This document shows positions 2,441-31,082 of a stretch of DNA of 64,000 nucleotides, piece after piece. The notes beneath the pieces are model-generated. The model did no database searches. It was not told where the DNA came from and was given only the letters and a program-made list of their open reading frames with translations. The stretch's first letter is position 1. The number at the start of each line of letters is the position of its first letter. The DNA is from Heliopora coerulea (Eukaryota; Cnidaria; Anthozoa; Scleralcyonacea; Helioporidae): positions 421,001 through 485,000 of the forward strand of contig JASJOG010000199.1 of assembly GCA_030142905.1 (NCBI GenBank), read 5' to 3'. Made by a program: the position numbers and the translations under genes.

Positions 2441-3937
2441 GTTTTTTTCTGAAATAGGAGAAAATTGTGCGTTTTCCTAAAACAGAGAATATTTTACGAA
2501 AATGTCCTGACACCCGCCTTTTACATCTACTAATATCTCTGCCAAACTTCATCTGCTTCTTTAGACTTAAAAGTCGTAGTTTAGAATACGGAGAACCTGT
2601 GTCGTTTTTTATGGCCCCAACAGCTTAACATACTGAGTTTGCTCGAACCGAAGAAAACCTTTGGAAAATTACGATCTATAATCCTTACATCACTTCACTG
2701 AAAACTGTTTAAAATTCTATCATTCATCCGTTTGCAACATGAAATCATTCATAGCGATTTAAAAGATTCTATTTTGGCCCCTAAAACAATTTTCACTCTC
2801 TATCTTTAAGAATCTATGATAAGCAAATGCGTCAAAAAAACCTGTAAAGTCATAGAAACTTACAGCGGCCCTCATCTTTCAAGTGTCGTTTATGTTGGCA
2901 GCACGAAATTTTTATTATGCGCACGTGGCGAAACTTTAGCGTTTCTTTTGTATAAGAAAAAGAAAGAAACATATACAGTCTCCTTCATATTATTAAGTGC
3001 CATATAATAGTTGATCAAAGTTCTTCCCCTCCCGTAAATCGTTGACGTCAAATTTTAAGAAAAGTTTCATGACATGTACGAGCAACATTGCTGTAAAACC
3101 GCGGCTTAAGCTGAAATCCGAAAATAAGATTAGGAACTGCATGAATGTTTATGATATCGTCATCAGTAAACGATTCCATGTTTAATGCAATTGCATTACA
3201 ATTTAGAAAGAGTATTCGACGTGGGAATAAAATCTTATTTGTTTGTCGTCAGGTAAACATTTGGCCCGCAAGCTGCGTTCGGCCTCTAAACCCGAAATGA
3301 AGCCATTGGCGTTTTTAATAAGAGGAGCCGGTGTCGTAGAGATTAGCGACTTCTGTAGTTAGTGACCTCCTGGACATTCACATTTAGCTAGAAATCACCT
3401 TTTTAGGTTTATATAAAGATTAGGGTTAGAATTGTTCTTAGTGTTATGTCAACAGTCAGGATTACGATTAGGTTTAGATATACAAATAATTAGTATAAAC
3501 TTAATAAAGGCTAATGCAAAAACTGCAGTGTGATTGGCAATGGTATTCGATATCTTCCAGTCAAAAGATATAGTCAATTGCACGTTAGTTCGACATGTGA
3601 GTATCGCGAGATCAATGGTCAGAGCGTCTCACCAGTCGTCACAGGGCATCAGACACTGTGTCAGACCTTTCCATTTCCCGTGCACTATCCATTTCAATTT
3701 TAGTGTATCGTTCACCGCTAAGTATAAGTGCTTGTGATCATACTAGGGGTCACTTGTGCCTGATATTCGTCCATCGCTCTCACACCGTCTACTAGGCAAA
3801 GGCTTTTCGGGAGTTCAGGTTATCCGTGAGGCTATCAGGCAAAGATGTATAGGGAGTAGAGGTTGCGTGTGAAGTTAAATACTCCAATAGCGGACTGTCG
3901 ATCCTTCAACTAATGTACATTTTTCCTTGTTTTGCAG

Positions 3938-3955
3938 GGATCAACTTTGGTTTAG
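3938..3955 (+). CDS. Candidate 18-nt cassette micro-exon, unit 1
   Basis: The exon GGATCAACTTTGGTTTAG is preceded by CTAAT, a pyrimidine tract and TTTTGCAG, and followed by GTAAGTGCC. Read in phase 0 it gives GSTLV followed by TAG, so this edge copy may be dead or a poison exon. Read with one base completing the previous codon it is open (DQLWF). It shares Val at codon 5 with the other copies in phase 0. Confidence 0.45.
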   Translation, partial: GSTLV

Positions 3956-6385
3956 GTAAGTGCCTGAGTAGTGAAGCAGCAGACATCGGATATCAACGTT
4001 GTATGACTTTTTTTTACAGCGAATTTATGACGATTATTGCGAAATTACAAGTTGGATTGTACATTAAATTGGGCCACATCAAAAATTAATATTTGAGAAT
4101 CGATAAGAATTCTTGGGTCGAAGTGTTTCGAAATTCGGTGATTTCTTTAGTTGATCTAAGAAGTTTCCATAACTTCCAAATGACATGATAGTCGTCAGTC
4201 ATTCAACATTTATCAAACCAATATTCGTAAGATGACCTGCCGATACCTACTTATAATATGCCAAGTTTAGAATTTCATATCAATAAGAGGGTTTGCTCGT
4301 TTCCAAAGAAAAATTCGGACGTATCGAAAAATGTTAAGGACATCTTTAAATCAGTCATAGTTCTATCAACAACATGATGCAGCTTCGAATTGTTCAAGCT
4401 TCCAAGCAAAGTGGTAACGAATGAAATTGAAACCTGTAATCTGGTAAAATGAAATACTAGATTAGATAAAAATAGTATGTAGTTTATGGAGAGAAAAGCA
4501 CAAGATACAGGGACGTAAGATGGCATGTAAAGTGTGGTTAAAAATTTTGGAACTTATGCCATTTTATTTTTATTTGTTATCAACGGCTGGTTGTTTGAAG
4601 CCAGATAGTGTATTCAGTGGGTTAGTCTCAATGAGTAATCAGCGGTATCCATGGATTGAACAACTGTGCTTAAAGTTTGTCCGCCAAATTGCGTATTATA
4701 AACTTTATAGTGCTACTTCTTGATAAGGAGCAACAAGTCCTCACGGGATTTCTTGTTTTCTACATCCAATGCGATGTTTGGAAAACCAAAGTGCCACTGC
4801 ACTACAAAGTTGCACGTGTAGCCGATTTTACACGGAAGACACGACTGCTGGAAAAGTAGCACAAAAAAGTTGCAGAAAATCGGACGAGTAAAATATTTGG
4901 TTACAAAAGAGATACATTGTCGTTTGTGTAGCCCATATATTTGCCAAACTTCATATGCTTGTTTAGACTTAAAAGACGTAGTTTAGAATACGGTGAAACT
5001 GTGTCGTTTTTTCCGGCGCCGACAGCTTAACATACTGAGTTTGCTTGAACTGTAGGAAAGCTTTGGAAAATTAAGATAAATAATCCTTACATGGCGTCCC
5101 TGAAAACAGTTTAAAATTCTATAATTCATCAGTTTGGAACATGAAATCATTCATAGCACTTTAAAATATTCTATTTTTGCCCCTCAAACAATTCTGACTC
5201 TCCATCTTTAAGAATCTGTGCTAAGCAAATGCGTCTTGTTCGGAATCCTCTATGTTGTTAGCATCGGTAAAAATTGGAGGGCTAAAAAAACCTGTAAAGT
5301 CATAGAAACTTACAACGGCCCTCATCTTTCAAGCGACGTTTATGTTGGCAGCACAAAATTTTTATTTTGCCCACGTGGCGAAACTTTAGCGTTTCTTTAG
5401 TATAAGAAAAAGAAAGAAACATTTACAGTCTCCTTCATATTATTAAGAGAAATATAATGGTTGATCAAAGTTCTTCCCCTCCCGTAGATCGTTGACGTCA
5501 AACTTTAAGAAAAGTTTCATGACATGTACGAGGAACGTTGCTTTAAAACCGCGTCTTAAGCTGAAATTCGAAAATAAGATTAGGAACTGCATGAATGTTT
5601 ATGATATCGTCATTAGTAAACGATTCCATGTTTAATGCAATTGCATTATAATTTAGAAAGAGTAAGTATTCGACGTGGGAATAAAATCTTATTTATTCGT
5701 AGTCAGCCGAACATTTGGCGCGCAGGCTGCGTTCGTCCCCTTAACCCGAAGTGAGGCCATTGTCGTTTTGAATAAGAGGAGCCGGTGTCGTAGAGCGACT
5801 TCTGTAGTTCGTGTCCTCCTGGACATTCACATCTAGCTAGACATCAGCTTTTTAGGCTTAGATAAAGATTACGGTTAGAATTGTTCTTAGTGTTTGGTCA
5901 ACAGTCAGGATTAGAGTTAGATTTAGCAATACAAATGATTAGTATGAACTTAATAAAGCCCAATGCAAAAACTGCAGTGTGATTGGCAATGGTATTCGAT
6001 ATCTTCCAGTCAAGAGATATAGTCAATTGCACGTTAGTTCGACATGTGAGTCTGGCGAGCTCAATGGTCAGAGCGTCTCACCGGTCGTCAAAGGGCATCA
6101 GACACTGTCTTAGATTTCTCCATTTACCGTGCAATATCCATTTCAATTCTAGTGTATCGTTCACCACTAAATATAAGTGCCTGTGATCATATCACCGTCA
6201 CTCCTCCCTGATATTCGTCCTTCGCTCTCACACCGTCTTGCAGGCAAAGTTTTTTCGAGAGTTCAGGTTGTGCACGAGGCAATCAGCCAAAGTTGTATGG
6301 GGAAAGTAGGTTCCGTGTGAGGCTAACTTCCCCTATGTCGGACAGTCGATCCTTCAACTAATGTACATTTTTCCTTGTTTTGCAG

Positions 6386-6403
6386 GGAGAAAGTTCGGTT
6401 GAG
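6386..6403 (+). CDS. Candidate 18-nt cassette micro-exon, unit 2
   Basis: The exon GGAGAAAGTTCGGTTGAG has the same branch-site, pyrimidine tract, TGCAG acceptor and GTAAGT donor as the other copies. Phase 0 gives GESSVE; with one base completing the previous codon it gives EKVRL; the remaining phase contains TGA. It differs from unit 1 at 5 of 18 bases. Confidence 0.55.
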
Positions 6404-8836
6404 GTAAGTGCCGGAGTAGTGAAGCAGCAGAAATTGGATATCAACTTTGTATTGCTTCTTTTTTTTCCTTTGAATTTACGACGGTTATTCCCAAATTACA
6501 AGTTGGATTGTACATTAAATTAGGCCATATCAAAAATTAATATTTGAGAATCGATAAGAATTCTTGGGTCGAAGTGTTTCGAAATTCGGTGATTTCTTTA
6601 GTTGATCTAAGAAATTTCCATAACTTCCAAATGACATGATAGTCGTCAGTCATTCAACATTTATCAAACCAATATTCGTAAGATGACCTGCCGATACCTA
6701 CTTATAATATACCAAGTTTAGAATTTCATATCAATAAGAGGGTTTGCTCGTTTCCAAAGAAAAATTCGGACATATCGAAAAATGTTAAGGACATCTTTAA
6801 ATCAGTCATAGTTCTATCAACGACATGATGCAGCTTCGAATTGTTCAAGCTTCCAAGCAAAGTGGTAACGAATGAAATTGAAACCTGTAATCTGGTAAAA
6901 TGAAATACTAGATTAGATAAAAATAGTATGTAGTTTATGGAGAGAAAAGCACAAGATACAGGGACGTAAGATGGCATGTAAAGTGTGGTTAAAAATTTTG
7001 GAACTTATGCCATTTTATTTTTATTTGTTATCAACGGCTGGTTGTTTGAAGCCAGATAGTGTATTCAGTGGGTTAGTCTCAATGAGTAATCAGCGGTATC
7101 CATGGATTGAACAATTGTGCTTAAAGTTTGTCCGCCAAATTGCGTATTATAAACTTTATAGTGCTACTTCTAGATAAAGAGCAACAAGTCCACACGGGAT
7201 TTGTTACTTCTAACATCCAATACAATGTTTGGAAAATCAGAGTGCCACTGCACTACAAAGTTGCACGTGTAGCCGATTTGTCACGGAAGACATGACTGCT
7301 GGAAAAGTAGCACAAAAAAGTTGCAGAAAATCGGACGAGTAAAATATTTGGTGACGAAAGAGGTACATTGTCGTTTGTGTAGCCAATATATTTGCCAAAC
7401 TTCATATGCTTGTTTAGACTTAAAAGTCGTAGTTTAGAATACGGTGAAACTGTGTCGGTTTTTATGGGCCCGACAGCTTAACAAACTGAGTTTGCTCGAA
7501 CCGTAGAAAAGCTTTCGAAAATTAAGATTGATAATGTTTACATGACTTCACTGAAAACAGTTTAAAATTCTATAATTCATCCGTTTGCAACATGAAATCA
7601 TTCATAGCGCTTTAAATTATTCTATTTTGGCCCCTCCAACAATTTTAACTCTCCATCTTTAAGAATCAGTGCTAAGCAAATGCGTCTTGTTCGGAATCCT
7701 CTATGTTGTTAGCATCGGTAAAAATTGGAGGGCTAAAAAAACCTGTAAAGTCATAGAAACTTACAACGGCCCTCATCTTTCAAGCGACGTTTATGTTGGC
7801 AGCACAAAATTTTTATTTTGCCCACGTGGCGAAACTTTAGCGTTTCTTTAGTATAAGAAAAAGAAAGAAACATTTACAGTCTCCTTCATATTATTAAGAG
7901 AAATATAATGGTTGATCAAAGTTCTTCCCCTCCCGTAGATCGTTGACGTCAAACTTTAAGAAAAGTTTCATGACATGTACGAGGAACGTTGCTTTAAAAC
8001 CGCGTCTTAAGCTGAAATTCGAAAATAAGATTAGGAACTGCATGAATGTTTATGATATCGTCATTAGTAAACGATTCCATGTTTAATGCAATTGCATTAT
8101 AATTTAGAAAGAGTAAGTATTCGACGTGGGAATAAAATCTTATTTATTCGTAGTCAGCCGAACATTTGGCGCGCAGGCTGCGTTCGTCCCCTTAACCCGA
8201 AGTGAGGCCATTGTCGTTTTGAATAAGAGGAGCCGGTGTCGTAGAGCGACTTCTGTAGTTCGTGTCCTCCTGGACATTCACATCTAGCTAGACATCAGCT
8301 TTTTAGGCTTAGATAAAGATTACGGTTAGAATTGTTCTTAGTGTTTGGTCAACAGTCAGGATTAGAGTTAGATTTAGCAATACAAATGATTAGTATGAAC
8401 TTAATAAAGCCCAATGCAAAAACTGCAGTGTGATTGGCAATGGTATTCGATATCTTCCAGTCAAGAGATATAGTCAATTGCACGTTAGTTCGACATGTGA
8501 GTCTGGCGAGCTCAATGGTCAGAGCGTCTCACCGGTCGTCAAAGGGCATCAGACACTGTCTTAGATTTCTCCATTTACCGTGCAATATCCATTTCAATTC
8601 TAGTGTATCGTTCACCACTAAATATAAGTGCCTGTGATCATATCACCGTCACTCCTCCCTGATATTCGTCCTTCGCTCTCACACCGTCTTGCAGGCAAAG
8701 TTTTTTCGAGAGTTCAGGTTGTGCACGAGGCAATCAGCCAAAGTTGTATGGGGAAAGTAGGTTCCGTGTGAGGCTAACTTCCCCTATGTCGGACAGTCGA
8801 TCCTTCAACTAATGTACATTTTTCCTTGTTTTGCAG

Positions 8837-8854
8837 GGAGAAAGTTCGGTTGAG
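8837..8854 (+). CDS. Candidate 18-nt cassette micro-exon, unit 3 (same as unit 2)
   Basis: Sequence and flanks are the same as in unit 2 (GESSVE in phase 0), because units 2 and 3 are near-identical over ~2.45 kb. This looks like a recent duplication or gene conversion, so the copy adds dosage or a redundant choice, not a new peptide. Confidence 0.55.
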
Positions 8855-11292
8855 GTAAGTGCCGGAGTAGTGAAGCAGCAGAAATTGGATATCAACTTTG
8901 TATTGCTTCTTTTTTTTCCTTTGAATTTACGACGGTTATTCCCAAATTACAAGTTGGATTGTACATTAAATTAGGCCATATCAAAAATTAATATTTGAGA
9001 ATCGATAAGAATTCTTGGGTCGAAGTGTTTCGAAATTCGGTGATTTCTTTAGTTGATCTAAGAAATTTCCATAACTTCCAAATGACATGATAGTCGTCAG
9101 TCATTCAACATTTATCAAACCAATATTCGTAAGATGACCTGCCGATACCTACTTATAATATGCCAAGTTTAGAATTTCATATCAATAAGAGGGTTTGCTC
9201 GTTTCCAAAGAAAAATTCGGACATATCGAAAAATGTTAAGGACATCTTTAAATCAGTCATAGTTCTATCAACGACATGATGCAGCTTCGAATTGTTCAAG
9301 CTTCCAAGCAAAGTGGTAACGAATGAAATTGAAACCTGTAATCTGGTAAAATGAAATACTAGATTAGATAAAAATAGTATGTAGTTTATGGAGAGAAAAG
9401 CACAAGATACAGGGACGTAAGATGGCATGTAAAGTGTGGTTAAAAATTTTGGAACTTATGCCATTTTATTTTTATTTGTTATCAACGGCTGGTTGTTTGA
9501 AGCCAGATAGTGTATTCAGTGGGTTAGTCTCAATGAGTAATCAGCGGTATCCATGGATTGAACAATTGTGCTTAAAGTTTGTCCGCCAAATTGCGTATTA
9601 TAAACTTTATAGTGCTACTTCTAGATAAAGAGCAACAAGTCCTCACGGGACTTCTTACTTTTTACATCCAATGGGATGATTTGAAAACCAAAATGCCACT
9701 GCACTACAAAGTTGCACGTGTAGCCGATTTTACACGGAAGACACGACTGCTGGAAAAGTAGCACAAAAAAGTTGCAGAAAATCGGACGGTTAAAATATTT
9801 GGTTACAAAAGAAGTACAGTGTCGTTTGTGTAGCCCATATATTTGCCAAACTTCATATGCTTGTTTAGACTTAAAAGTCGTAGTTTAGAATACGGTGAAA
9901 CTGTGTCGTTTTTTCTGGGCCCGACAGCTTAACATACTGAGTTTGCTCGAACTGTAGGAAAGCTTTGGAAAATTAAGATAAATAATCCTTACATGACGTC
10001 CCTGAAAACAGTTTAAAATTCTATAATTCATCAGTTTGGAACATGAAATCATTCATAGCACTTTAAAATATTCTATTTTTGCCCCTAAAACAATTTTCAC
10101 TCTCCAGCTTTAAGAATTTGTGATAAGCAAATGTGTCTTATTCGGAGTTCTCTATGTTGTTAGTATCGGCAAAAATTGAAGGGCTAAAAAAACCTGTAAA
10201 GTCATAGAAAGTTACAGCGGACTTCATGTTTCAAACGACATTTATGTTGGCAGCACAAAATTTTTATTGTGCGCACATGGCGACAATTTAGCGTTTCTTC
10301 TGTATAAGAAAAAGAAAGAAACATATACAGTCTCCTTCATATTATTAAGCGGCATATAATAGTTGATCAAAGTTCTTCCCCTCCCGTAGATCGTTGACGT
10401 CAAATTTTAAGAAAAGTTTCATGACATGTACGAGCAACATTGCTGTAAAACCGCGGCTTAAGCTGAAATCCGAAAATAAGATTAGGAACTGCATGAATGT
10501 TTATGATATCGTCATCAGTAAACGATTCCATGTTTAATGCAATTGCATTATAATTTAGAAAAGTAAATGTTCGACGTGGAAATAAATTCTTATTTGTTCG
10601 TCGTCAGCCGAACATTTGGCACGCAGGCTGAGTTCGGCCCCTGAACCCGAAGTGAGACCATTGGCGTTTTGCATAAGAAGAGCCGGTGTAGTAGAGATAA
10701 GGGACTTCTGTAGTTCGTGTCCTCCTGGACATTCACATCTAGCTAGAAATCAGCTTTTTAGGCTTAGATAGAGATTACCGTTAGAATTGTTCTTAGTGTT
10801 AGGTCAACAGTCAGGATTGGGGTTAGATTTAGCAATACAAATGATTAGTATGAACTTAATAAAGCCTAATGGAAAAACTGCAGTGTGATTGGTAATGGTA
10901 TTCGATAACTTCCAGTCAAAAGATATAGTCAATTGCACGTTAGTAGGACATGTGAGTATTGCGAGATCAATGGTCAGAGCGTCTCACCAGTCGTCACAGG
11001 GCATCAGACACTGTGTCAGACCTTTCCATTTCCCGTGCACTATCCATTTCAATTTTAGTGTATCGTTCACCACTAAGTATAAGTGCCTGTGATCATACTA
11101 GGGGTCACTTGTGCCTGATATTCGTCCATCGCTCTCACACCGTCTACTAGGCAAAGGCTTTTCGGGAGTTCAGGTTATCTGTGAGGCAATCAGGCAAAGA
11201 TGTATAGGGAGTAGAGGTTGCGTGTGAAGTTAAATACCCCTATAGCGGACTGTCGATCCCTCAACTAATGTACATTTTTCCTTGTTTTGCAG

Positions 11293-11310
11293 GGAGAAAC
11301 TTCAGTGGAA
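11293..11310 (+). CDS. Candidate 18-nt cassette micro-exon, unit 4
   Basis: The exon GGAGAAACTTCAGTGGAA lies between TTTTGCAG and GTAAGTGCC. Phase 0 gives GETSVE, close to the GESSVE of units 2 and 3, with the Val codon changed from GTT to GTG and the Glu codon from GAG to GAA, both silent. The one-base-offset reading is also open (EKLQW). Confidence 0.55.
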
Positions 11311-13744
11311 GTAAGTGCCTGAGTAGTGAAGCAGCAGACATCGGATATCAACGTTGTATGACTTTTTTTTACAGCGAATTTATGACGATTATTGCGAAAT
11401 TACAAGTTGGATTGTACATTAAATTAGGCCACATCAAACATTAATGTTTGAGAATCGAAAAGAATTTTTAAGTCGAAGTGTTTTGAAGCTCGGTGTTTTC
11501 TTTAGTTGACCTAGGAAATTTCCATAACTTCCAAATGACATGAGTGTCGTCAGTGATTCAACATTTATCAAAGCAATATTCGTAAGGTGACTTTGCTATA
11601 CCCACCTGTAACATACCAAGTTTGGAATTTCTTTTAAAAAAGGGGGTTGCTCGTTTCCAAAGAAAATTTCGGACAGATCGAAAAATGTTAACGACATCCT
11701 TAAACCAGTCATAGTTCTATCAACGACATGATGCAGCTTCGAATTGTTCAAGCTTCTAAGCAAAGTGGTAAAGAATGAAAATGAAGCCTGTAATCTGGTA
11801 AAATGAAATACTAGACTAGATAAAAAAAGTATGTAGTTTATGGAGTGAAAAGCGCAAGATACAGGGACGTAAGATGGCATGTAAAGTGTGGTTAAAAATT
11901 TTGGAACTTACGCCATTTTAGTTTTTTTTGTTATCAGCGGCTAGTTGTTTGAAGCCAGATAGCGTATTCAGTGGGTTAGTCTCAGTGAGTAATCAACGGT
12001 ATCCATGCATTGAACAACTGTGCTTAAAGTTTGTCCGCCAAATTGCGTATTATAAACTTTATAGTGCTACTTCTAGATAAAGAGCAACAAGTCCACACGG
12101 GATTTCTTACTTCCAACATCCAATACAATGTTTGGAAAACCAGAGTGCCACTGCACTACAAAGTTGCACGTGTAGCCGATTTGTCACGGAAGACACGACT
12201 GCTGAAAAAGTAGCACAAAAAAGTTGCAGAAAATCGGACGAGTAAAATATTTGGTTACAAAAGAGGTACATTGTCGTTTGTGTAGCCAATATATTTGCCA
12301 AACTTCATAAGCTTTTTTAGACTTAAAAGTCGTAGTTTAGAATAGTGAGAAACTGTGTCGTTTTTTCCGGGCCCGACAGCTTAACATACTGAGTTTGCTT
12401 GAACTGTAGGAAAGCTTTGGAAAATTAAGATAAATAATCCTTACATGACGTCACTAAAAACAGTTTAAAATTCTATAATTCATCAGTTTGGAACATGAAA
12501 TCATTCATAGAGCTTTAAAATATTCTATTTTTGCCCCTCAAACAATTTTCACTCTTCATCTTTAAGAGTCTGTGATAAACAAGTGCGTCTTATTCGGAGT
12601 TCTCTATGTTGTTAGTATTGGCAAAAATTGGAGGGCTAGAAAAACCTGTAATGTTATAGAAAGTTACAGCGGACTTCATGTTTCAAGCGACGTTTATGTT
12701 GGCAGCACAAAATTTTAGTTGTGTGGACGTGGCGAAAATTTAGCGTTTCTTCTGTTTAAGAAAAGAAAGAAACATATACAGTCTCCTTCGTATTATTAAG
12801 TGGCATATAATAGTTGATCAAAGTTCTTCCCCTCCCGTAGATCGTTGACGTCAAATTTTAAGAAAAAGTTTCATGACATGTACGAGCAACATTGCTGTAA
12901 AACCGCGGCTTAAGCTGAAATTCGAAAATAAGATTAGGAACTGCATGAATGTTTATGATATCGTCATCAGTAAACGACTCCCTGTTTAATGCAATTGCAT
13001 TACAATTTAGAAAGAGTAAGTATTCGTCGTGGGAATAAAATCTTATTTGTTCGTTGTCAGCCGAACATTTTGCCCGCAGGCTGAGTTCGGCCCCTGAACC
13101 CGGAGAAAGGTCATTGGCGTTTTGAATAAGAAGAGCCGGTGTCGTATAGATAAGCGACTTCTGTAGTTAGTGACCTCCTGGACATTCACATCTAGCTAGA
13201 AATCAGCTTTTTAGGCTTAGGTAAAGATTACGGTTAGAATTGTTCTTAGTGTTAGGTCAACAGTCAGGATTAGGGTTAGGTTTAGGAATGCAAATGATTA
13301 GTATGAACTTAATAAAGCCTAATGCAAAAACTGCAGTGTGACTGGCAATGGTATTCGATATCTTCCAGTTAAAAAATATAGTCAATTGCTCGTTATTTAT
13401 ACATGTGAGTCTGGCGAGCTCAATGGTCAGAGCGTCTCACCGGTCGTAACAGGACATCAGACACTGTCTTAGATTTGTCCATTTATCGTGAACTATCAAT
13501 TTCAATTCTAGTGTATCGTTCACCACTAAGTATAAGTGCTCGTGATCATATGGGGGTCACTCCTCCCTGATATTCGTCCTTCGCTCTCACACCGTCCAGC
13601 AGGCAAAGCTTTTTCAGAAGTTCAGTTTTTGCGTGAGGCAATCAGGCAAAGGTGTATGGGGAGTGGACATTCCGTGTGAGGCTAAATTGCCCCTTGGCGT
13701 ACTGTCGATCTTTGAACTAATGAACATTTTTCTTTCTTTTGCAG

Positions 13745-13762
13745 TGTGGAAAGTGGGTTCGG
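13745..13762 (+). CDS. Candidate 18-nt cassette micro-exon, unit 5
   Basis: The exon TGTGGAAAGTGGGTTCGG is preceded by a slightly altered pyrimidine tract (TTTCTTTCTTTTGCAG) and followed by GTAAGTGCC. Phase 0 gives CGKWVR, the most divergent residues at positions 1, 3, 4 and 6 but still Val at 5. It differs from the unit 2 exon at 8 of 18 bases. Confidence 0.55.
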
Positions 13763-16201
13763 GTAAGTGCCTGAGTAGTGAACCAGCAGACATGAGAGAT
13801 CAACGTTGCATGGCCTTTTTTTTTGTTGTGAATTTACGACGATTATTCCAAAATTACAAGTTGGGACGTACATTAAATTAGGCCATATGAAACATTAATG
13901 TGTGAGAATGGATAAAAATTTTTGGGTCATAGGGTTTCGAAATTCGGTGTTTTCTTTAGTTAATCTAGGAAATTTCCATAACTTCCAAATGACAGGGTGT
14001 CGTCAGTGATTCAAGATTTATTCAACCAATATTCGTAAGATGACCTACCGATACCCACTTATAGTATGCCAAGTTTAGAATTTGACATGAATAACGGGGG
14101 TTACTTGTTTCCAAAAAAAATTTCGGACATATTGAAAAATGTTAACGACATCTTTAAATCAGTCATAGTTCTATCAACGACATGATGCAGCTTCGAATTG
14201 TTCAAGCTTCCAAGCAAAGTGGTAACGAATGAAAATGAAACCTGTAATCTGGTAAAAATAAAATAGTAGATTAGATAGAAATAGTATGTAGTTTATGGAG
14301 TGAAAAGCACAAGATACAAGAATCCAAGATGGCATTTAAAGTGTGGTTAAAAATTTTGGAACCTACGCAATTTTATTTTTTTTTGTTATCAATGGCTGGT
14401 TGTTTGAAGCCAGATAGCGTATCAATGGTTTAGTCTCAGTGAATAATCAGCGGTATCCATGGATTGAACCACTGTGCTTAAAGTTGTGTCCGCCAAATTG
14501 CGTATTATAAACTTTATAGTGCTACTACTAGATAAAGAGCAACAAGTCCTCACGGGATTTCTTGTTTTCTACATCCAATGCGATGTTTGGAAAACCAAAG
14601 TGCCACTGCACTACAAAGTTGCACGTGTAGCCGATTTTACACGAAAGATACGACTGCTGGAAAAGTAGCACAAAAAAGTTGCAGAAAATCGGACGAGTAA
14701 AATATTTGGTTACAAAAGAGGTACATTGTCGTTTGTGTAGCCAATATATTTGCCAAACTTCATATGCTTGTTTAGACTTAAAAGTCGTAGTTTAGAATAG
14801 TGAGAAACTGTGTCGTTTTTTCCGGGCCCGACAGCTTAACATACTGAGTTTGCTCGAACTGTAGAAAAGCTTTGGAAAATTAAGATGGATAATCCTTACA
14901 TGACGTCACTAAAAACAGTTTAAAATTCTATAATTCATCAGTTTGGAACATGAAATCATTCATAGCGCTTTAAAATATTCTATTTTTGGCCCCTCGAACA
15001 ATTTTCACCCTCTATCTTTAAGAATCTGTGCTAAGCAAATGTGTCTTGTTCGGAGTCCTCTATATTGCTACCATCGGTAAAAATTGAAGGGCTGAAAAAA
15101 CATATAAAGTCACAGAAACTTTCAGCGGCCCTCATGTTTCAAGCGACGTTTATCTTGCCAGCACGAAATTTTTATTGTGTGTACGTTGCGAAACTTTAGT
15201 GTTTCTTTTGTATAAGAAAAAGAAAGAAACATATACAGTCTCCTTTATATTATTAAGTGGTGTATAATAGTTGATCAAAGTTCTTCCCCTCCCGTAGATC
15301 GTTGACGTCAAATTTTAAGAAAAGTTTCATGACATGTACGAGGAACGTTGCTTTAAAACCGCGTCTTAAGCTGAAATCCGAAAATAACATTAGGAACTGC
15401 ATGAATGTTCATGATATCGTCATTCGTAAACGATTCCATGTTTAATGCAATTGCATTACAATTTAGAAAGAGTAAGTATTCGACGTGGGAATAAAGCCGT
15501 ATTTGTTCGTCGTCAGCCGAACATTTGGCGCGCAGGCTGCGTTCGTCCCCTGAACCCGAAGTGAGGCCATTGGCGTTTTGAATAAGAAGAGCCGGTGTCG
15601 TAGAAGTAAGCGACTTCTGTAGTTAGTGACCTCCTGGACATTCACATCTAGCTAGAAATCTGCTTTTCAGGCTTAGATAAAGATTACGGTTAGAATTGTT
15701 CTTAGTGTTTTTTCAACAGTTGGGATTTGGGTTAGGTTTACCAATACAAATGATTAGTATAAACTTAATAAAGCCTGAAGCAAAAACTGCTTTGTGATTG
15801 GCAATGTTATTCGATATCTTCCCATCAAAAGATATTGTCAATTGCACGTTAGTTGGACATGTGAGTATCGCGAGCTCAATGGTCAGAGCGTCTCACCAGT
15901 CGTCACAGGGCATCAGACACTGTCTTAGATTTCTCCATTTACCGTGCAATATCCATTTCAATTCTAGTGTATCGTTCACCACTAAGTATAAGTGCCTGTG
16001 ATCGTATCAGGGATCACTCCTCCCTGATATTCGTCCATGGTTTTCACACCGTCTAGCAGACATAGCTTTTTCGGAAGTTCAGGTTGTGCGTGAGGCAATC
16101 AGTCAAAGGTGTATAGGGAGTAGAGATTGCGTGTGAGGCTAAATTGCTATATGGCGGATTGTCGATCCTTGAACTAATGTACATTTTTCGTCTTTTTGCA
16201 G

Positions 16202-16219
16202 CATTTCACATGGGTCGAG
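16202..16219 (+). CDS. Candidate 18-nt cassette micro-exon, unit 6
   Basis: The exon CATTTCACATGGGTCGAG is preceded by CTTTTTGCAG and followed by GTAAGTGCC. Phase 0 gives HFTWVE (Val codon GTC). It differs from the unit 2 exon at 10 of 18 bases, while the 38 bases upstream differ at only 4 and the first 20 bases of the downstream intron at only 2. The LINE insertion begins ~285 bp downstream and leaves the splice signals intact. Confidence 0.55.
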
Positions 16220-16503
16220 GTAAGTGCCTGAGTATTGAAGCAGTAGAAATCGGATATCAACGTTGTATGGCTAGTTTTTTGCTGTGAATTTATGATGATT
16301 ATTTCCAAATTACAAGTTGGATCGTACATTAAATTAGGCCGTATCAAACATTAATGTTTGAGAATTGATAAGAATGTTTTGGTTGAAGTGTTTCGAAGTT
16401 CGGTGTTTTCTTTAGTTGATCTAGGAAATTTCCATAACTTCCAAATGACAGGAATGTCGTAAGTGATTCAACATTTATCAAACCAATATTCGTAAGATGA
16501 CCT

Positions 16504-17899
16504 TTAACATTCAACATTCAAAGTAATTTTATTTCTCCATTATGGATTTTCAGAAATAATTACAATTAATAATTATATGCGTTACAAATCTATATTTACA
16601 TTAACATCATTAATTACCCAACCTACGTGAATTTCAACTATACATTACAACCAATAACAAGGTAAAAATTTAACTATTCATGCATACTATAATAACAGCC
16701 ATTTCAACTTTAAGGAACTGAATATTGATTTATTAACAACTAGTAATTCTTCCAACACTCTTTATATAATTTGTTCCTTATTAAAATCTTAAAAGTTCCG
16801 ATGTTAGAGATATTCTCAATATCATCCTCAAGTTCGTTCAATAATTTAGTCGCCCTATATAAGAATGAACGCTGCCCTGCTGCAGTTCGATGAAGGGGAA
16901 TCTACAACTCGTCTTTACATCTTGTGTCTCGATCATGTGTTTGCGACCTAGATACAAATCTTCTGGCAAGATATGATGGAGCTAAGTCATTCAAACACTT
17001 AAATGTCATAACAGCATCTTTGTATCGCAACATATAATCAAGAGGCAACCAATCTAATTGTTTCAGTGCAGGCGTGATATGATCAAACCTCCTTATACCT
17101 GTAACGAGTCTTGTAGCAAAATTTTGCACGCTTTGTAGTTTAGCTATGTTCTTCGTAGAAGTATTTGCCCACACTGAGGAACAATAATATAGTTTACTAA
17201 AAACTAAGGCATTTATAATCACTGTTGAGGTCCGATTGTCCAAAATGTGTTTCACTCGATTAATTTGACAAAGGGACTTTGTGCATTTGGAGACTACTTG
17301 GACAATATGTTCATCATAACTCAGGCTTTTGTCAAACTCCATCCCTAAATCTTTCGCTGAAGAAACGGGTCGTAGTATCTTTCCAAGGAAGGGTACTCGA
17401 AAGTCCTGAACTTGATTTAACATTTGTGGGGTACCAAATAGAACGAGTTTAGTTTTTCCAGGGTTGATGAGTAGGCTACTAGAGCAACACCATTCAGCAA
17501 CTCTCTTTAAATCGTCCGCAAATTGGGTTCCCCCAGCACTGATGTTTTTCAATGAAAATGACAAATACATCTTTGAATCATCGACGTACGATTCCAAAGG
17601 ACAAACTGTAGGAACATTAGGAAGGTCGTTAATATAGATGTTAAATAATGCCGGGCCAAGTATAGAGCCTTGAGGCACTCCATGTGTGATCATGCGAGCT
17701 TCTGAAAGTATATGACCAAGTCGCACTGACTGCCTCCTTTCTGAAAGATAACTCTTAAACCAAGCAACGGCCTTCCTGGATACACCCAAGGAACGCAGTT
17801 TCTCAAACAGCAGTGAATGTTCAATACTGTCGAACGCCTTTGATAGGTCCAACAACACCACCGCGGTTAACTCTTTCCTATCTTTAGCCTCGAGAATCA
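16504..17899 (-). mobile_element. 5'-truncated CR1/Jockey-like non-LTR retrotransposon
   Basis: The unit-6 sequence is interrupted after AAGATGACCT (ends ~16503) and resumes at TTCCGATACCCACC (~17903). The inserted block runs on the minus strand: its 3' end carries two copies of TTGAATG in place of poly(A), as in CR1/L2-type elements, and its 5' end cuts off inside the reverse transcriptase. I see no clear target-site duplication. It postdates the array unit it sits in, so it gives a relative age for unit 6. Confidence 0.85.
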
Positions 17900-17900
17900 T
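16740..17900 (-). pseudogene. Reverse transcriptase C-terminal half of the LINE
   Basis: The frame shows RT motif A (VVLLDLSKAFD), motif B (HGVPQGSILGPALFNIY) and the catalytic box YVDD, then the thumb and C-terminal region. The apurinic endonuclease and first RT motifs are missing. A TAG at about residue 387 (just below 16902) interrupts the frame, but the same frame continues with IPLHRTAAGQRSF and ends at 16740-16742, so this is a nonsense mutation. The ~55 residues that precede the RT in the long open frame (up to 18062) are read-through of the array unit and not part of the element. It is not expected to be active. Confidence 0.85.
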
Positions 17901-18215
17901 ATCTTCCGATACCCACCTATAAAATGCCAAGTGCGGAATTTCATATGTATAATGGGGTTGCTCGTTTCCAAAGAAAATTTCGGACATATCGAAAAATGTT
18001 AACGACATCCTTAAATCAGTCATAGTTCTATCAACGACATGATGCAGCTTCGAACTGTTCAAGCTTCCACCGAATGGGGCTGGAATTAAAATGAAACTTG
18101 TACTCAGGAAAAAATGAAATACTTGATCAGATAAAAGATAATATGTACTTTATAGAGTGAAAATTGTAAATTACAGGGACGGAAGATGATACATCAAGCG
18201 TGATGAAAAATTTTG

Positions 18216-20840
18216 AAAGTTCTGAATACGAGGTTGATTAACTCGTAGATTTGTCATCCTTAATGGAAAATGGTACAGATATAGTTACTTTTTAGCCTTT
18301 GATGCTGCACTTGCAGATGTCCTCTTGGTAAAGCTTCTAAAGAGGAAGTATTTCCTTTTGTGTGATCATATGGCGTAATGTTCTCTTTTGTTCGCTGGCT
18401 CCGTCGCAGACTTTCTGTCCCATACACGTATCATTTAGCAGTTGGAATTTTCTGAGTCTCTTCAGTCGAATTAGGAGTTTATTTAGGTTAAATCCCTTAA
18501 ACTAGCATAGGAGACTTCTACACTACAGTCAAAAACACTTAACATGCCTCCTTCTGGTAATTTGCAATGGGGTGGTAGATGAATATTTTTAATGACTCAC
18601 GAGTAAATAGTGATCTTGTAGAGTTGTTATTCTATTACACCAGCAGCGTTCAGTAAATAAGGGTACAAAGTAACTGAAAGAAGGTACATAGTTTTTAAAA
18701 TTCTTCATCACACTCGATAATTTGAAACCCGCAAGCTTTATTGTAAAATTTTTATTTTAACAATGTCGTCGTATATTTTGCTATTTTACTCTTCACTGAA
18801 TTATACATGCACGGACCAAGTTGTGATAACCGTGAAAATATTACCCAGCTCCCAAATTATTGGTACCATGGCAACAAAACTAGATTGCACTATATGACAT
18901 ATCTTTTATTTTTATTACGTTTATCTTAAAGATAAGTACACTCCGTAGTGGACTTCTAATTATTTGAAAGACAGAAATGCTCGTACACGAACGTTCCATT
19001 AATTTCAGTTTGCATAATAAGGACTGTATCGAGCCATGTTGACGCCGTACTTTGGAGCTACTTAAACTTTGAGGTGTTTGGTTTTAACAAACAGCAAAAC
19101 AATGGAAGTTTAGGAAGTATGTGATTGGCTTGCTTTAGTTCGCAATAACTAGCTTGGGATATTTTGCTCTGTTGACGGTTTTTCAAAACAAGATGTAGTC
19201 TCTCTCTCCGGCAGTCGTGTTTGGCCAAATTTTAATCAACTCTTAAAACCTGGAAGATAGGTGTTAACTTTATTTAAACAAATGGAGATCAAAGCATTTC
19301 TAATCAAACGCGTTTCTGCTTCTTAATGATTAAAAATATTCAGCGGACGTTGTACACAAAAGCACCAGATTTTTTATTTGTTTTTTTTTTTTTAATATTC
19401 ATTTATTTTGAAGCGATCCTGCGAGATTTTTCGTTTTACTCGTTCAACTTGGAACGATCGTGTGATTGTTCTACGATAAGTTCGTTTATCTGTGTTGTAT
19501 TTGAAGATTTTGTTGTATGATTGAATAAATAAACTGTAGTCCGTGAATTTCTGGAAGTCAATCACTCGAAGCACTTTTATTCTCTCTTAAAATCTTGCGA
19601 TCATCGTCCGTTGAAATTAATTTAAGAGGTACTCCCTTCGTTTTAACGAAGAGCGAACGACGTGATTTTCTTCAATTCATGGGCTACTACGATGTTCAGA
19701 TTAAGCAGACCAAGCTCCAATAAGAAACGTGCGGAAATCAAGTGGTCAAAATGGAGGTCAAGTTATCACGGTTATTTATCCGGGTTCTCTTTACCCGATT
19801 TACAAATTGTAGTCTAATACAGCATATTGTTAACTACTTTTGGATTAGGAAACATTTGTTTCGCCAAGTTTTCGTTAAACAACTTCCTTAGCCTCTCTAT
19901 TAGGTGAAAATTTGACGAAAGAGTCGCACGTAAACAACCAAACATCGGAATACCTCGAAGACATCTTTACTAAAATCGATTTAAAACTTTCAGCGAAGGG
20001 CTAATTGTGGGAACATGCAAACATGAATGCATAGGGAAAAACGGGAGGCAAGTCATTTAAAAAACCTATATATACTCGAGCAAAATCAGATGTTTGAAAC
20101 AACTCGCGAAATTGACCATACAAAATGTCTTACAATCACTGAAGGCCTCACGGGAAGTATTGCGCAATTTTGCAAATTCGTGACCGCGAAATTTAAAAGA
20201 AACAAACCAGAAACGTAACCGAAACCTAGACTCTGGGTTGCATAGGTTGTCCGAGTAATAAATCATAATTTGGGAAATACTTTGAGGCTGGTTATGGGGT
20301 AGGTTCTACACTTGGTAATGCTACTTGATGAGTGCTTTGGACGTTACATGCGGAGAAAAAGTTCGGGTAGAGCTGAAGAATTGATATGACATAGATGCTA
20401 TGTGTGTAAAAACTTAGAATTTAGATTTTCTTAGTTAAGGTTAAATTAGGGCAGCTAATATTGGAGCAAAAGACGATTGAAATGGACAATTTTTCAGTGT
20501 TATTAAAGCCTGGTTTTTTATATATTGTTAACGATTGAACGTTTCTGGCACAAAAGATGTTAAAACTACCAAGCTAATACTTCTAAAAAAGTCGAGGGAC
20601 AGGCGCAACTTCTAAAAAATACAAGACAAGTTTCGGTTCCGCTTCCTTAATTGATATCATACATTTTGGTGACTTATTTTTGTTACTTCAGCTCTGATTG
20701 ATCATAATAAATTCAACAAATCCAAAAAATTTTAAGGCCAATGTACATGATACGATTGTCTTATACGATTTTTCGTATAAGAAATTCAAAAAGTCAACTA
20801 GTCCGGAAAGTGATGAGTAATTAGTACGTCTCATAGAGAA
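18216..20840. other. No recognisable gene
   Basis: After the array ends I see only short frames of 60-67 codons, a T-rich run near 19382-19396, and no convincing pair of splice sites around coding-like sequence. If the micro-exon array lies in an intron, this would be more of that intron. Confidence 0.5.
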
Positions 20841-20879
20841 TTTAAAATGATGAAATTTGTTTACTTTGAAAAGGACTCG

Positions 20880-21900
20880 ATTTTTTAATGACGCTTAGAC
20901 GAATACCAATTAAAGAAATCGTTAGTTCGGTGGAGCAGGGCTCAAGCAATTTACCATCTGACAAAAAGGATAATATACTAGAAAAAGCAAAGGGTATTTG
21001 GAAAAATCCCGAAATTCCGCCCACTTAGGGAAGTCCAGAAAATCCTTAAAAGTTCAATTAAAAGTAAAAACAGTCCGAATCTGAAATCCAAATTTGTTAA
21101 AATTAATGTCGAATTCAAAAAATCATGATCACGTTTCGATAATATGCAGATATTTATGCTAGAGACTTGCTGAACGTCGTGCCATTTCAAGAAATGCTGT
21201 AGGAACGAGTTTCTGTGGTGTTTAGGCTGAGAACAATTTTTTCCTCGTAACTTGGCAACAGTCGGAAACGTAAGAGGTTCCAGTATGAGAGAAGTCAGCA
21301 ATGACATACGACAAAATCTTTGGGAGAATTGTGGAGGAGAAAGAAATTCGAAAAATCCGCGATACTGAAGAAAAATTCTCGATACTTCAGAAAAAATCAT
21401 CGGGATTTTTCAATCCAAAAAAAATCTTTTACGCTTTTTTTGGAGCAATACGCCGATCGAACAGAACTTAACAGCACCGTTAAAAAACGAAGAACTGCCC
21501 TGAACCAGAATTTAACTCGACAAGAGAGACAGGTATTGAACTCTAAGCTGATAACAGTATTTTAACGATAAAGGCGGATAAAGGAAACTCGACCGTTCTG
21601 AACAAAACTATGTGGAGCACGTGTTCAAATGCCTCAACAGGAGATGTACGAAAAGATTACGGATAAAAAAAAAATCCGACAAGCAAGACGGAAATGGAGC
21701 TGTAAGAAAAGTTTTTGAAATTACGAAAATGAGGAAACTTGTCGAAATCAGAGTACCGGAAATTAAGACCTTTCGACTCGAGTACAGTCTGATTTTGTGG
21801 TATTCCAAAAATCAATAAGGTCCCCTTAATTTCTGAACACGACCATTTTAGCATTGAAGAGGAAGCATCTACGAGAATTATTTTACGACCAATTCATAGT
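20880..21900 (+). mobile_element. Decayed Penelope-like element, 5' half
   Basis: Fragments in all three + frames line up with the N-terminal half of a PLE reverse transcriptase: IPIKEIVSSVEQGSSNLP near 20890, LTRQERQVLNSKL near 21515, ADKGNSTV near 21575, then KLRPFDSSTV, an FYGIPK-like IPKI motif and ILRPIHS near 21880. Many frameshifts and stops separate them, and a segment around 21000-21400 looks inserted or diverged. The 140-aa frame on the minus strand at 20978-21400 is antisense noise. The element is dead. Confidence 0.6.
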
Positions 21901-21904
21901 TGCA

Positions 21905-23476
21905 TGTGATAGCTGACCTACCAGTTATCAAAGTATTTGGCTTCTCTCTCTCTAAACGTCTCTGTGGTGGCAGTAAAAATTCTGTCAAGATAAGAAGAGA
22001 GTTTTGAGAATTTGTAAGTGCGCAGAAGGTCGACACAGGTGAAGCAATTGCATCTTTCTATTTGATTTCTCTGTTTACATCTATTCCAGTTCCACTAACT
22101 GTGGACGTCGTCAAGTGAAAGCTTTTTAGAACTTTTGCCCAAGTTATGGGATTTCTTTTCCTGGTACTTAACTACAGTTGTTTTAAAAGGGGAATTGCCA
22201 CGCCAATCAATTTTTATCTAAATGAAAAGCCTTATTACAAAAAAATAAAAGCCCTAAATATATTTCTCCAGCCGTCATTCATTGACGAGAGATAAGGAAT
22301 GAAGCAGATGGAAAATTTTGAAATACAGCGCCGCTATTTTCTCTTTGTCAGTGGGCGCCTAAAATCAGCGGTGTCTCGAGTGTGACTTCAGTTGAGTGTT
22401 TAGCTTCTATTGGTTTATTGCGTTTAGCAATTAGCATGGTTGTTTGACTCCCTTGGTTAGTAGGATTCTTATAACGTGTACGTGGATTTAACAACCAGTG
22501 ATAAGAGCTAGTCATCAAGTTCAAGTGACCCTGAGGAAAACAATACAGAGAGGTTGAATAAGCACAACAATGCTGAGCCGATTGACGATTTGGGGGTGAA
22601 ACCGTATCAATTTGAGCCAGTAAGACAACCTGATGGTGACGATGAGTAACTTGAGGCGAGTGGTAACCAATATGGACCTGCTTGGAATTTGCATAAGCCA
22701 CGGTATTCTTTGCTATTGCAATATAACTCCTTGGTTGTCTTCGTGAGTACAGTTTGTATGTTGAGTGGCATTCCAATATCCGCAAGTAGCCGTCGAAGTC
22801 AGATTACGTCTTGAATGGCCATACTGAAAGCTATGTATTCCACTTGTGCTGTTGATATTGAAACGGACACTTCCTGTTTTAGTCAACCAGGTCGCTGTTC
22901 CTAGGTCTTGCCAACATAAACTCATTTCCGTTTAGTCAGATTAAACAATTAAAGATTTGCAGACGGCAATGGTTAGTAACCTTTCTCTCTTTCCAATGTT
23001 TACACCACAATCTCCTGAGGCTTGGGTGAAACCAACTTTCTAGGCGTACTGCCGGAAAGTTTTACTCCAACATTGCGGCGACTGCTTCAACCCATCTAGT
23101 GACGTTTTAAGCTTGCATACCAGACGTTCTTTTCTACGTTTTACATGTACGTACAGTATCCTTTTAGTTGCTGCATATATATTTCTTCATAAGGTTTTCT
23201 TTTGTTCAGAATGGAATCCACGTTCATCTGGAGAATAAGCATGTAATTCCGAGCTCCAGAAGCTAACAATTACCGTAATGACGAAAAACGCACAGCCAGA
23301 GATAGAATGTCATCACAGCAGATTTGATATTTCTGGACATATCCCTTGTAACTCAGAGTCCTTTGAAGTGTTGCACTGTACAATCGATACGATGCTTCAC
23401 CTCGAACACCCATTTACCTTCAAAAGCTTTACGGCCAGGGGGTAGCTCGGACAAGTTTCTCGAGTCGTTTTCAATA
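21905..23476. other. No recognisable gene; unassigned minus-strand frames
   Basis: Two minus-strand frames, 22348-22785 (145 aa) and 22713-22925 (70 aa), overlap. I recognise no family, the composition (many Gln, His, Asn, Thr) is not distinctive, and neither shows clear splice signals. They may be chance frames. Confidence 0.35.
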
Positions 23477-23578
23477 AACCTAACATTAACCCTAACCCTA
23501 ACCCTAACTCTAACCCTGAATCGTAACCCTAACCTAACCCTAATCTAACCCTAACCTCAACTGTAATCCTAATCCTAA
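23477..23578. repeat. Degenerate interstitial telomere-like tract
   Basis: About 100 bp of CCCTAA repeats on the + strand (the complement of TTAGGG), perfect for three units near 23488-23506 and then interrupted by CTCTAA, CTGAAT and CTCAAC variants. TTAGGG is the metazoan telomere repeat. The decay points to an old internal tract, not a chromosome end. Confidence 0.85.
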
Positions 23579-26500: not shown

Positions 26501-26584
26501 TGTTATTCGACGTAGTTTCAACGTCGATGAACAAGGTCGAATCGAGATCTTAATTCTTACCCGCTGGGTTCATGATACCGAGGT
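23579..26584. other. No recognisable gene; several unassigned frames
   Basis: Minus-strand frames at 24049-24360 (103 aa, three Cys) and 24725-25003 (92 aa, six Cys) are the longest. They could be exons of a decayed secreted or receptor protein, but I cannot match them to a family. The + frame at 26308-26553 contains repeated ACGTCGA words (26448-26530) that look like a transposon end rather than coding sequence. Confidence 0.35.
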
Positions 26585-26589
26585 GGATC

Positions 26590-26630
26590 TAGACTAGTTC
26601 AACTAGTTTCCGCAAACTAGTCAACTTTTC
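26590..26630. repeat. Palindromic ACTAGT cluster at the left end of the element
   Basis: AACTAGTTTCCGCAAACTAG is an imperfect inverted repeat around CCGC and is preceded by a further ACTAGTTC. The motif recurs at 26814, 26866, 26916, 26970, 26980 and 26990. Confidence 0.6.
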
Positions 26631-26829
26631 GAAAGAATGAAAAATGTTGATTGGATTTTTTATTGCATGGAATATTAAAATGATATCATTTTTGTTTTTG
26701 CACAACATATTTACCCTGCTAAAATACTCTAGTACGTTAATTCTGTTCTAAGTTGCAGAATGTGCGTGTGTAAAGCGTTTAATCACACTGAAACGACTGG
26801 TTTCGTGGGGAAACTAGTCAAATTTTACT

Positions 26830-27015
26830 ATGATTGGCTGATTCTAATAATTCAATTAGAGTGAACTAGTTAAAGCCGCCTCCTATTGGCTAAAGGCGCC
26901 CAAGCAATTACAGTGAACTAGTCAAAACTGCCTGCTTTTGGCTAATCGCCTAAATCCCAATTAGAGCGAACTAGTCGTGAACTAGTCGTGAACTAGTGGA
27001 AAAGTATAAATAGAC
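26830..27015 (+). promoter_or_regulatory. Promoter-like block: repeated GAACTAGT, inverted CCAAT boxes, TATA box
   Basis: Three degenerate ~50-60 bp repeats each contain CAATTA-AG-GAACTAGT; the first two are followed by ATTGGCT or TTGGCT (inverted CCAAT boxes), and the third has GTGAACTAGTC doubled. TATAAATA follows at 27005-27012. The order (upstream repeats, CCAAT, TATA) is that of an RNA polymerase II promoter. A start site ~30 bp beyond the TATA would fall near 27035, downstream of the first ATG at 27016, so the ATG at 27046 is the more likely start. Confidence 0.5.
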
Positions 27016-27180
27016 ATGGCGTCGCAGAGGTTGCACATTTGTGGTATGGATGACTGTTTACCTAAGGAATTGGATTTGTTTATCGAGCGACGAACCGGTT
27101 TTAAGCTACATGAAAATTATATTTATTCACAACATCGGAAAAGCAGACCCACCGTGCGCCAAGCCGCACGTATTTCATAA
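27016..27180 (+). CDS. Small ORF (54 aa) directly below the TATA block
   Basis: ATG at 27016, a second in-frame ATG at 27046 (favoured if the TATA box is used), and TAA at 27178-27180. The peptide is charged and has no signal peptide or membrane segment. In another frame the sequence stays open from about 27130 to 27280 and ends near CTCAAGGTACAT, which could be a splice donor, so an indel may have split a longer exon. I do not recognise it. Confidence 0.3.
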   Translation: MASQRLHICGMDDCLPKELDLFIERRTGFKLHENYIYSQHRKSRPTVRQAARIS

Positions 27181-27394
27181 AGCGCCAGCCTGAAGCAATG
27201 CGGAAAGCTATGAAAGTTCAGAGTGGAATGGCCGACTCGTTACCCTTGGCTGGTTTACTCAAGGTACATTAATGAAGTCTTTTGTCGACCATGTTTTGGA
27301 AGTGCGTGTGGGAAGAGTGCCAGTTAGCTCAGTAGACGATTAGGAGCATCATTTACGTTGTGGACGGCTGCTAATTTTGCATTTGCCGCCTACC

Positions 27395-27905
27395 TGTCGA
27401 TCTGACGATGGACTAAGATAATTTTGAACTTCTTAACATTCCTGTTGGTCATTCTGCTGTTTGACTGAGCTGATTTTGGATTTGATAATCTTCGTGGTTG
27501 TTAACCTTCACCAGCACTAAGATTACCATGAATGGATTAAATTTCCTGCCTTCAATTTTGCTGCTGGACTAAAATGATTTTGTATTTCTCCGCCAACCTA
27601 ATTAATCTGCTGCTTGACTAAGATGATTTTGAGGTGATTTTGGATTTATTGGCCTTCCCACTTGTCAATCTGATGATAAACTAAGAGAATTTGGACTTAT
27701 TAACTTTCCTGTCGGCCTTTCTACTCCTGGACTGCGTTGAGTTTGGATTTATTAACTTGGCTGCTAGTTAGTATGCTGCTAAGTTAAGAAATCTTGATAA
27801 TCCTCTTACTTCGTCCCATTTTACTTCTAGAGGGACATAATTTTGAACTTACCATAATAACCATCTTGCCAGAGTAAGATGATTTTTAAGCTGGACGAAA
27901 ACAAT
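27395..27905. repeat. Degenerate minisatellite, ~60-70 bp period
   Basis: Words such as GGACTAAGATGATTTTG, GGATTTATTAAC and CTTCCTGTCGGTC recur in the same order about seven or eight times with strong divergence and variable spacing. It has no open frame and follows the small ORF inside the putative 2 kb element. Confidence 0.6.
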
Positions 27906-30795: not shown

Positions 30796-31082
30796 TTTCA
30801 TTACTAGTGGAATCTTCGTTTATGATATCACTAATGAACAGTCATTCCTTGACATCTGTTGGCCTATTCAAGATTGTCTACGTGTAGATCTTAATGAAAA
30901 GATGCTCATTGTTGGGAACAAATCCGACTTAGAGGATCAAGGAAAAGTAAATGTTAATGAGGTGAAGACGTTTGCCCAGAAAAATAATGTAAGACATATC
31001 TCGTGTGATGCCAAAGAAGGTATCACCGTTGAACTGGCCTTCTATAAACTTTTGGAAGATGTTTTAAAAGACATCGACAAAG
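30796..31082 (+). CDS. Internal exon of a Rab/Ras-like small GTPase
   Basis: The exon is bounded by a pyrimidine-rich CCTTACAG acceptor and an AAAG/GTGAGT donor; it is 287 nt (one base, 95 codons, one base) and open throughout. It encodes the second half of a small GTPase: FVYDITNEQSF (strand 4 and helix 3 of Rab proteins), the guanine-specificity motif NKSD in MLIVGNKSDL (G4), and ISCDAKEG, a variant of the SAK loop (G5), then the last helix LAFYKLLEDVL. The P-loop, switches and any C-terminal prenylation cysteines would be in other exons, which I do not see. It may be part of a spread-out live gene or an orphan duplicated exon. The frame is intact, which argues against long decay. Confidence 0.65.

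Follow-up and report, generated by a model that had tools for sequence, protein, structure and literature searches.

A tandem array in Heliopora coerulea with one divergent 18-nucleotide, exon-like cassette per unit: candidate alternative micro-exons

Can exons of only six codons be multiplied in tandem and kept different from one another while the DNA around them is kept alike? This question is raised by a locus in the anthozoan Heliopora coerulea (GenBank assembly GCA_030142905.1, contig JASJOG010000199.1, positions 421,001 to 485,000 of the forward strand), a stretch of 64,000 nucleotides (nt) that we analysed as a whole and refer to as the window, with positions counted from its first letter. 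Near its left end lies a tandem array in which each of six units, U1 to U6, carries CTAAT, then TTTTGCAG, then exactly 18 nt, which we call the cassette, and then GTAAGT. The new observation presented here is that no other part of the unit diverges as much as this 18-mer, while the splice signals around it are fixed.

The preliminary description of this DNA had placed the array at 2541..18215 and given it six units of 2.45 kb. Self-BLAST and alignment confirm that the tandem array is real and that the unit measures about 2451 bp, but the array starts at 2532 and consists of five full units and one partial unit, U6, which is interrupted by an insertion of 1399 bp at 16504-17902. Pairwise identity among units ranges from 87.6 to 97.9%, with U2 and U3 97.9% identical overall. 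The insertion overlaps a minus-strand open reading frame (ORF; 16902-18062) with a reverse transcriptase match (Pfam RVT_1, E 2.6e-22), and this retroelement piece stands outside the exon system. Array similarity ends at 18215, and U6 is truncated. Identity among the units is mosaic, with U1 resembling U4 at alignment columns 1101-1560 and U3 at columns 1561-2000, suggesting conversion or unequal exchange among units. Elsewhere in the window, aside from a SINE-like stretch (short interspersed element), remnants of the unit amount to short matches of E 0.099 or worse, and the cassette context had no match in public contigs of viruses (viral_contigs, 0) or prokaryotes (genome_contigs, 0).

All six cassettes lie exactly where the preliminary description had put them, with TTTTGCAG, 18 nt and GTAAGT intact in 6 of 6 (Table 1). 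Searching both strands of the window for TTTTGCAG-N18-GTAAGT with up to two mismatches returned six matches, all of them exact, compared with a mean of 0.86 and a maximum of 4 for the same pattern in 100 shuffles. Since all six copies go back to a common ancestral unit, they do not count as six separate facts, and shuffling a single unit provides the fairer test of chance: a strong splice-site pair (acceptor at least 11.5 bits, donor at least 8 bits, 6-60 nt apart, a multiple of three, either strand) arose in 2 of 400 dinucleotide shuffles of U3, with scores taken from general consensus weights rather than weights trained on the source species. A looser scan of both strands of the window, accepting any length of 6-60 nt, found 12 short exon-like pairs, of which the cassettes account for six. 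In the remaining six the acceptor is always weaker, reaching at most 10.3 bits versus at least 11.6 bits in the cassettes, and one of these pairs has a donor of 9.7 bits, above the 8.1 bits of the U4 cassette. Judged by sequence, the cassettes form a tandem series of homologous candidate exons on the same strand, every one bounded by splice sites of its own, as in tandem exon arrays, and they are also very small, with a length that is a multiple of three (18 nt in 6 of 6), as in micro-exons of the schistosome type.

U2 and U3 share the same 18-mer, leaving five distinct cassettes. With U2 dropped for its 97.9% identity to U3 and five distinct units compared, the cassette exceeds every other one of the 1733 gap-free 18-column windows of the alignment in divergence (mean pairwise divergence 0.467 vs a mean of 0.103 over the windows), with a peak that coincides exactly with the exon, at column 1461. 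Shuffling produced a run this divergent in 0 of 20000 trials with single columns, in 1 of 20000 with six-column blocks and in 7 of 20000 confined to the local divergent zone (columns 1300-1560). Variation affects 14 of the 18 cassette columns, yet none of the five distinct forms departs from a length of 18; outside the cassette, 21% of gap-free columns are variable. The core signals (ACTAA, TTTTGCAG and GTAAGT) vary at none of their 19 columns, compared with 75 of the 221 others in the zone (Fisher 0.0006). Between U1 and U4, in columns 1101-1560, 10 of 439 flanking sites differ versus 7 of 18 cassette sites (Fisher 6e-07), and a significant excess of cassette differences over 200-column flanks is present in 8 of 10 pairs of distinct units.

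As for what the cassettes might encode, the preliminary description had held that any one, none or several of them could be included without a frameshift, which is correct for a length of 18 but leaves out in-frame stops that restrict frame 0 (TAG in U1) and frame 2 (TGA in U2 and U3). The non-empty cassette subsets that remain open number 31 of 63 in frame 0, 63 of 63 in frame 1 and 15 of 63 in frame 2; as the only frame leaving all subsets open, frame 1, equivalent to intron phase 2 on both sides of the cassette, is the one expected if inclusion is free. Its peptides are DQLWF, EKVRL, EKLQW, VESGF and ISHGS, plus split codons, while those of frame 0 are GSTLV* (ending in the stop), GESSVE, GETSVE, CGKWVR and HFTWVE. 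In frame 0 of the cassette, synonymous divergence is 0.55 and non-synonymous divergence 0.44; the corresponding values are 0.39 and 0.48 for frame 2 and 0.11 and 0.54 for frame 1, the last with about three synonymous sites per sequence, and frame 1 alone has a synonymous rate near the unit mean of 0.10. Synonymous codon differences in frame 1 number 1, compared with a permuted-column mean of 4.23. We lean towards frame 1 as the putative coding frame.

We give somewhat better than even odds (roughly 0.55) to the reading that the cassettes are arrayed alternative micro-exons whose diversity is maintained by selection as their introns are homogenised. The micro-exon array suggested in the preliminary description finds support in the fixed splice signals within a divergent stretch and in the divergence peak that falls exactly on the 18-mer. 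Each unit would be a duplicated stretch of intron containing one plus-strand 18-nt micro-exon, and the array would be embedded in a larger gene on the plus strand, with the constant exons of that gene located beyond the array, a placement favored by the fact that no complete gene was recognised within the unit. The spliceosome would join one or more cassettes between the constant exons, adding or swapping six residues; selection would keep the cassettes unlike, and gene conversion or unequal exchange would make the surrounding introns alike. It is plausible that the cassettes are used alternatively within one transcript. The more specific suggestion of mutually exclusive, Dscam-like use was not borne out, as no docking/selector pairing was found: the flanks contain 0 exact complementary 14- or 15-mers, 1 at 13 nt and 3 at 12 nt, counts equal to those of the reversed-sequence control, in a search of exact matches within the window that did not include G-U pairs and that a weak or distant site could escape.

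Two structural candidates were also set aside. Folding of the region round the cassette gave z-scores of 0.15 (U1), -2.19 (U3), 0.40 (U4), 0.96 (U5) and 0.60 (U6), and therefore no general structure there. At window positions 3906-4065, in U1, and in the same stretch of U2-U4, the branch/pyrimidine stretch is complementary to an element that follows the exon at a distance of 82-88 nt; the resulting stem reaches -21.6 kcal/mol in U1 and -21.0 kcal/mol in U4 (0.003 of shuffles as good), is marginal in U2 and U3 (-16.4 kcal/mol; 0.053 and 0.060 of shuffles as good), and does not outperform shuffled sequence in U5 or U6 (0.203 and 0.433); it was rejected as part of the array.

Several points weigh against alternative micro-exons. 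A second divergent patch lies just upstream of the cassette (column 1402, 0.339), so that divergence is not restricted to the exon and the whole zone is lively. The Fisher value of 0.0006 flatters the core signals, as the 19 columns were picked for recurring in all units, and that of 6e-07 flatters the U1-U4 comparison, for which columns 1101-1560 were selected after the bins had been inspected. The pairs U1-U3 (p 0.086) and U3-U4 (p 0.3) show no significant cassette excess, and the unit pairs of the 10-pair comparison are not independent. The evidence on frame is in conflict, with U1 ending in a stop in frame 0 and frame 0 showing 12 synonymous codon differences versus a permuted mean of 5.06 (P 0.0235, three frames tried). 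Finally, some open stretches outside the cassette have low ratios of non-synonymous to synonymous change (pN/pS; lowest 0.32) and would fit a gene in every unit.

Such an arrangement, in which each unit would be an independent small gene with the 18-nt exon as one of several, resembles fast-evolving peptide gene clusters, and we consider it unlikely on balance. Sea anemones have tandem peptide gene clusters, and the SA8 genes are described as consisting of 3-5 microexons with large introns (PMC10210398). Upstream of the cassette, the units of our array share a conserved block in which 16 of 200 columns vary across all six, compared with the 21% given above, and which contains TGACGTCA in 6 of 6 units; TATAAG occurs at column 469 in 5 of 6. 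Donor-like sites precede the cassette at column 1120 (8.7 bits, 6 of 6) and at column 731 (6.6 bits in 4 of 6, 4.3 in U4, lost in U1). Low pN/pS is also seen in some windows of 90 nt that stay open in each of the five distinct units; the minimum, a raw ratio of 0.32, comes from plus-strand columns 1172-1261, which precede the cassette by 200 nt. Yet no complete exon set was recognised in the unit and no conserved plus-strand acceptor above threshold follows the cassette, the column-1120 donor sits inside a tRNA-type SINE-like stretch, and over 141 open windows the median pN/pS is 0.78, with the cassette not standing out as one of a set of coding exons.

A touch less probable is that the array is a relic, in which a piece of intron was duplicated together with a single former exon that is no longer used, and in which chance and patchy gene conversion would have produced the pattern; the retroelement and SINE pieces in the array are consistent with this, as are the frame-0 stop in U1 and the frame-2 stops in U2 and U3, while 19 of 19 fixed core signal columns and a divergence peak exactly on the exon are unlike neutral decay. 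We regard as highly improbable that the 18-mer is non-coding, either as a micro-exon or as an element under targeted change or cassette exchange between conserved signals. The high synonymous divergence in frames 0 (0.55) and 2 (0.39) would suit that idea, but the frame 1 values (0.11 synonymous vs 0.54 non-synonymous, on about three synonymous sites) look as they would under diversifying selection, the constant length in all five forms argues weakly in the same direction, indels being rare in the unit, and the 7 Rfam matches in the window (E up to 0.5) include none in the array, which also disposes of a known non-coding RNA in the unit.

If the cassettes are alternative micro-exons, to which gene would they belong? 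The first plus-strand exon that we recognised downstream of the array is of Ras/Rab type (Table 1), with a moderate acceptor (6.7 bits) and a donor of 11.9 bits, and it falls in an ORF (30788-31135) that matches Pfam Ras (E 3.3e-16) as well as Rab and Ral entries in the PDB. It starts with one base followed by TTC ATT ACT, a phase 2 start that fits cassette frame 1, although a phase match has one chance in three. Between the array and this exon, 7 of 7 plus-strand ORFs of at least 70 residues had no match above Pfam cut-offs, and a scan of the plus strand at 18216-32000 found no acceptor-donor pairs bounding 30-500 nt with at least one open frame at thresholds that also miss the Ras/Rab-type exon with its 6.7-bit acceptor. 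Upstream of 30796 in the window, the plus strand showed no P-loop or DTAG motif, and a RAB1-type protein used as query found no first-half match better than E 2. The first half of the gene, if it exists, may lie outside the window or be too divergent or intron-broken to see; were it outside, the array would sit in an intron of that gene. Searches for relatives of the exon returned two candidates but no match with an X-padded query and none in viral_contigs, while a plain query gave one protein of two candidates, 90% identical over 63% of the query. In this single relative, similarity continues beyond the putative donor, with 15 of 17 residues matching there, as counted by eye, vs 54 of 60 inside, so that it gives no sign of selection on the exon.

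The Ras/Rab-type exon is the best candidate host in view, though we set the odds well against its being the host. A doubtful, distinctly improbable proposal is that the host encodes a Ras/Rab-like GTPase and that a hypervariable array of six-residue exons diversifies its switch II helix at the end. Under it, the cassette would enter and leave in phase 2 in frame 1, supplying five residues and a split codon, and would fall where Rab11 has T-S-A-Y-Y-R, as placed by hand from the alignment of the PDB match; the peptides would be diversified by selection (frame 1, 0.11 and 0.54) and the introns kept alike by conversion. Human RAB6A and RAB6A' are reportedly two forms of a Rab gene that arise through an alternative exon. 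If the Ras/Rab-type exon were the host, both systems would have a variable segment near switch II of a small GTPase, with two forms in the one and six tandem candidate micro-exons in the other, whose link to this host is putative.

Like Dscam-type arrays and human tandem duplicated exons, the present array consists of homologous candidate exons with introns between them, constant in length and diversified in content. Unlike them, the tandem exons of Dscam encode parts of Ig domains or whole ones (PMC3236188), compared with 18 nt here, and a docking site complementary to the selector of every unit, as in Dscam, did not emerge from the exact 12-15 nt matches in the window. A survey of human tandem duplicated exons required regions of at least seven residues (PMC9741552), meaning that six-residue exons would be excluded. 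The small symmetrical exons that are a feature of schistosome micro-exon genes (MEGs) are similar to the 18-nt cassettes; such exons form most of the MEG coding region, whereas here one candidate micro-exon recurs through tandem duplication of 2.45 kb with near-identical introns, a comparison made by description. The SA8 clusters of sea anemones are likewise cnidarian and tandem, with microexons and large introns, but they are clusters of whole genes (PMC10210398), and they are set apart, by description, from units in which no complete gene was recognised. Within the parts of the open-access literature consulted, we found no cnidarian micro-exon or duplicated-exon array of such form.

Several other features of the window were recorded. 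At the left edge of the array, where unit similarity stops, minus-strand ORFs adjoin it in 1-2520; the ORF at 666-1457 is without a family, and that at 1763-2149 is weakly C2H2-like, just below the Pfam cut-off. We suspect that this block is a mobile element; if so, the array could extend past the left side of the window. Each unit includes a tRNA-derived SINE-like fossil (columns about 1085-1162; 8462-8539 in U3), with further copies at 38.4, 39.2, 52.4, 56.8 and 57.4 kb, and U1-U5 have a minus-strand acceptor-like site of 11.5-12.2 bits, with its first exon-side base near 4847, 7298, 9749, 12201 and 14656. Farther away lie an internal telomere-like TAACCC tract (23475-23578), a 142-nt inverted repeat (38602-38743, 92% complementary) that matches Rfam MIR2934 on both strands under the gathering score, and a plus-strand Roc/COR-domain ORF of 706 residues (40624-42744); of the 103 relatives listed for this ORF, two carry an organism name, in both cases Paramuricea clavata.

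Table 1. Positions of the array units, cassettes and associated features in the window
Feature	Position	Strand	Details
Tandem array	2532..16503	+	Basis: self-BLAST and MAFFT
Unit U1	2532-4933	+	
Unit U2	4934-7384	+	
Unit U3	7385-9836	+	
Unit U4	9837-12287	+	
Unit U5	12288-14742	+	
Unit U6, first part of partial unit	14743-16503	+	
Retroelement piece splitting U6	16504..17902	-	Reverse transcriptase ORF, Pfam RVT_1; absent from U1-U5
Unit U6, remainder after insertion	17903..18215	+	82-84% identical to the matching stretch of other units
Cassette U1	3938..3955	+	GGATCAACTTTGGTTTAG; acceptor 13.4, donor 10.8 bits
Cassette U2	6386..6403	+	GGAGAAAGTTCGGTTGAG; acceptor 13.4, donor 11.9 bits
Cassette U3	8837..8854	+	GGAGAAAGTTCGGTTGAG, identical to U2; acceptor 13.4, donor 11.9 bits
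Cassette U4	11293..11310	+	GGAGAAACTTCAGTGGAA; acceptor 13.4, donor 8.1 bits
Cassette U5	13745..13762	+	TGTGGAAAGTGGGTTCGG; acceptor 12.2, donor 11.3 bits
Cassette U6	16202..16219	+	CATTTCACATGGGTCGAG; acceptor 11.6, donor 11.9 bits
Conserved block (U3 coordinates)	7904..8102	+	Columns 521-720; about 740-940 nt upstream of each cassette
Candidate host exon (tentative)	30796..31082	+	Second half of Ras/Rab-type G domain; begins in phase 2

If the cassettes are spliced in, this would be an exon array at the smallest scale, with a six-residue peptide as the unit of diversity and with change focused on the exon while the surrounding introns are kept alike. Such an array would also let one examine, in a natural setting, how exons stay diverse under concerted evolution, and it would be overlooked by gene finders that skip micro-exons. 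Should the Ras/Rab-type exon prove to be the host, the array would equip a signalling switch with an interchangeable set of helix ends.

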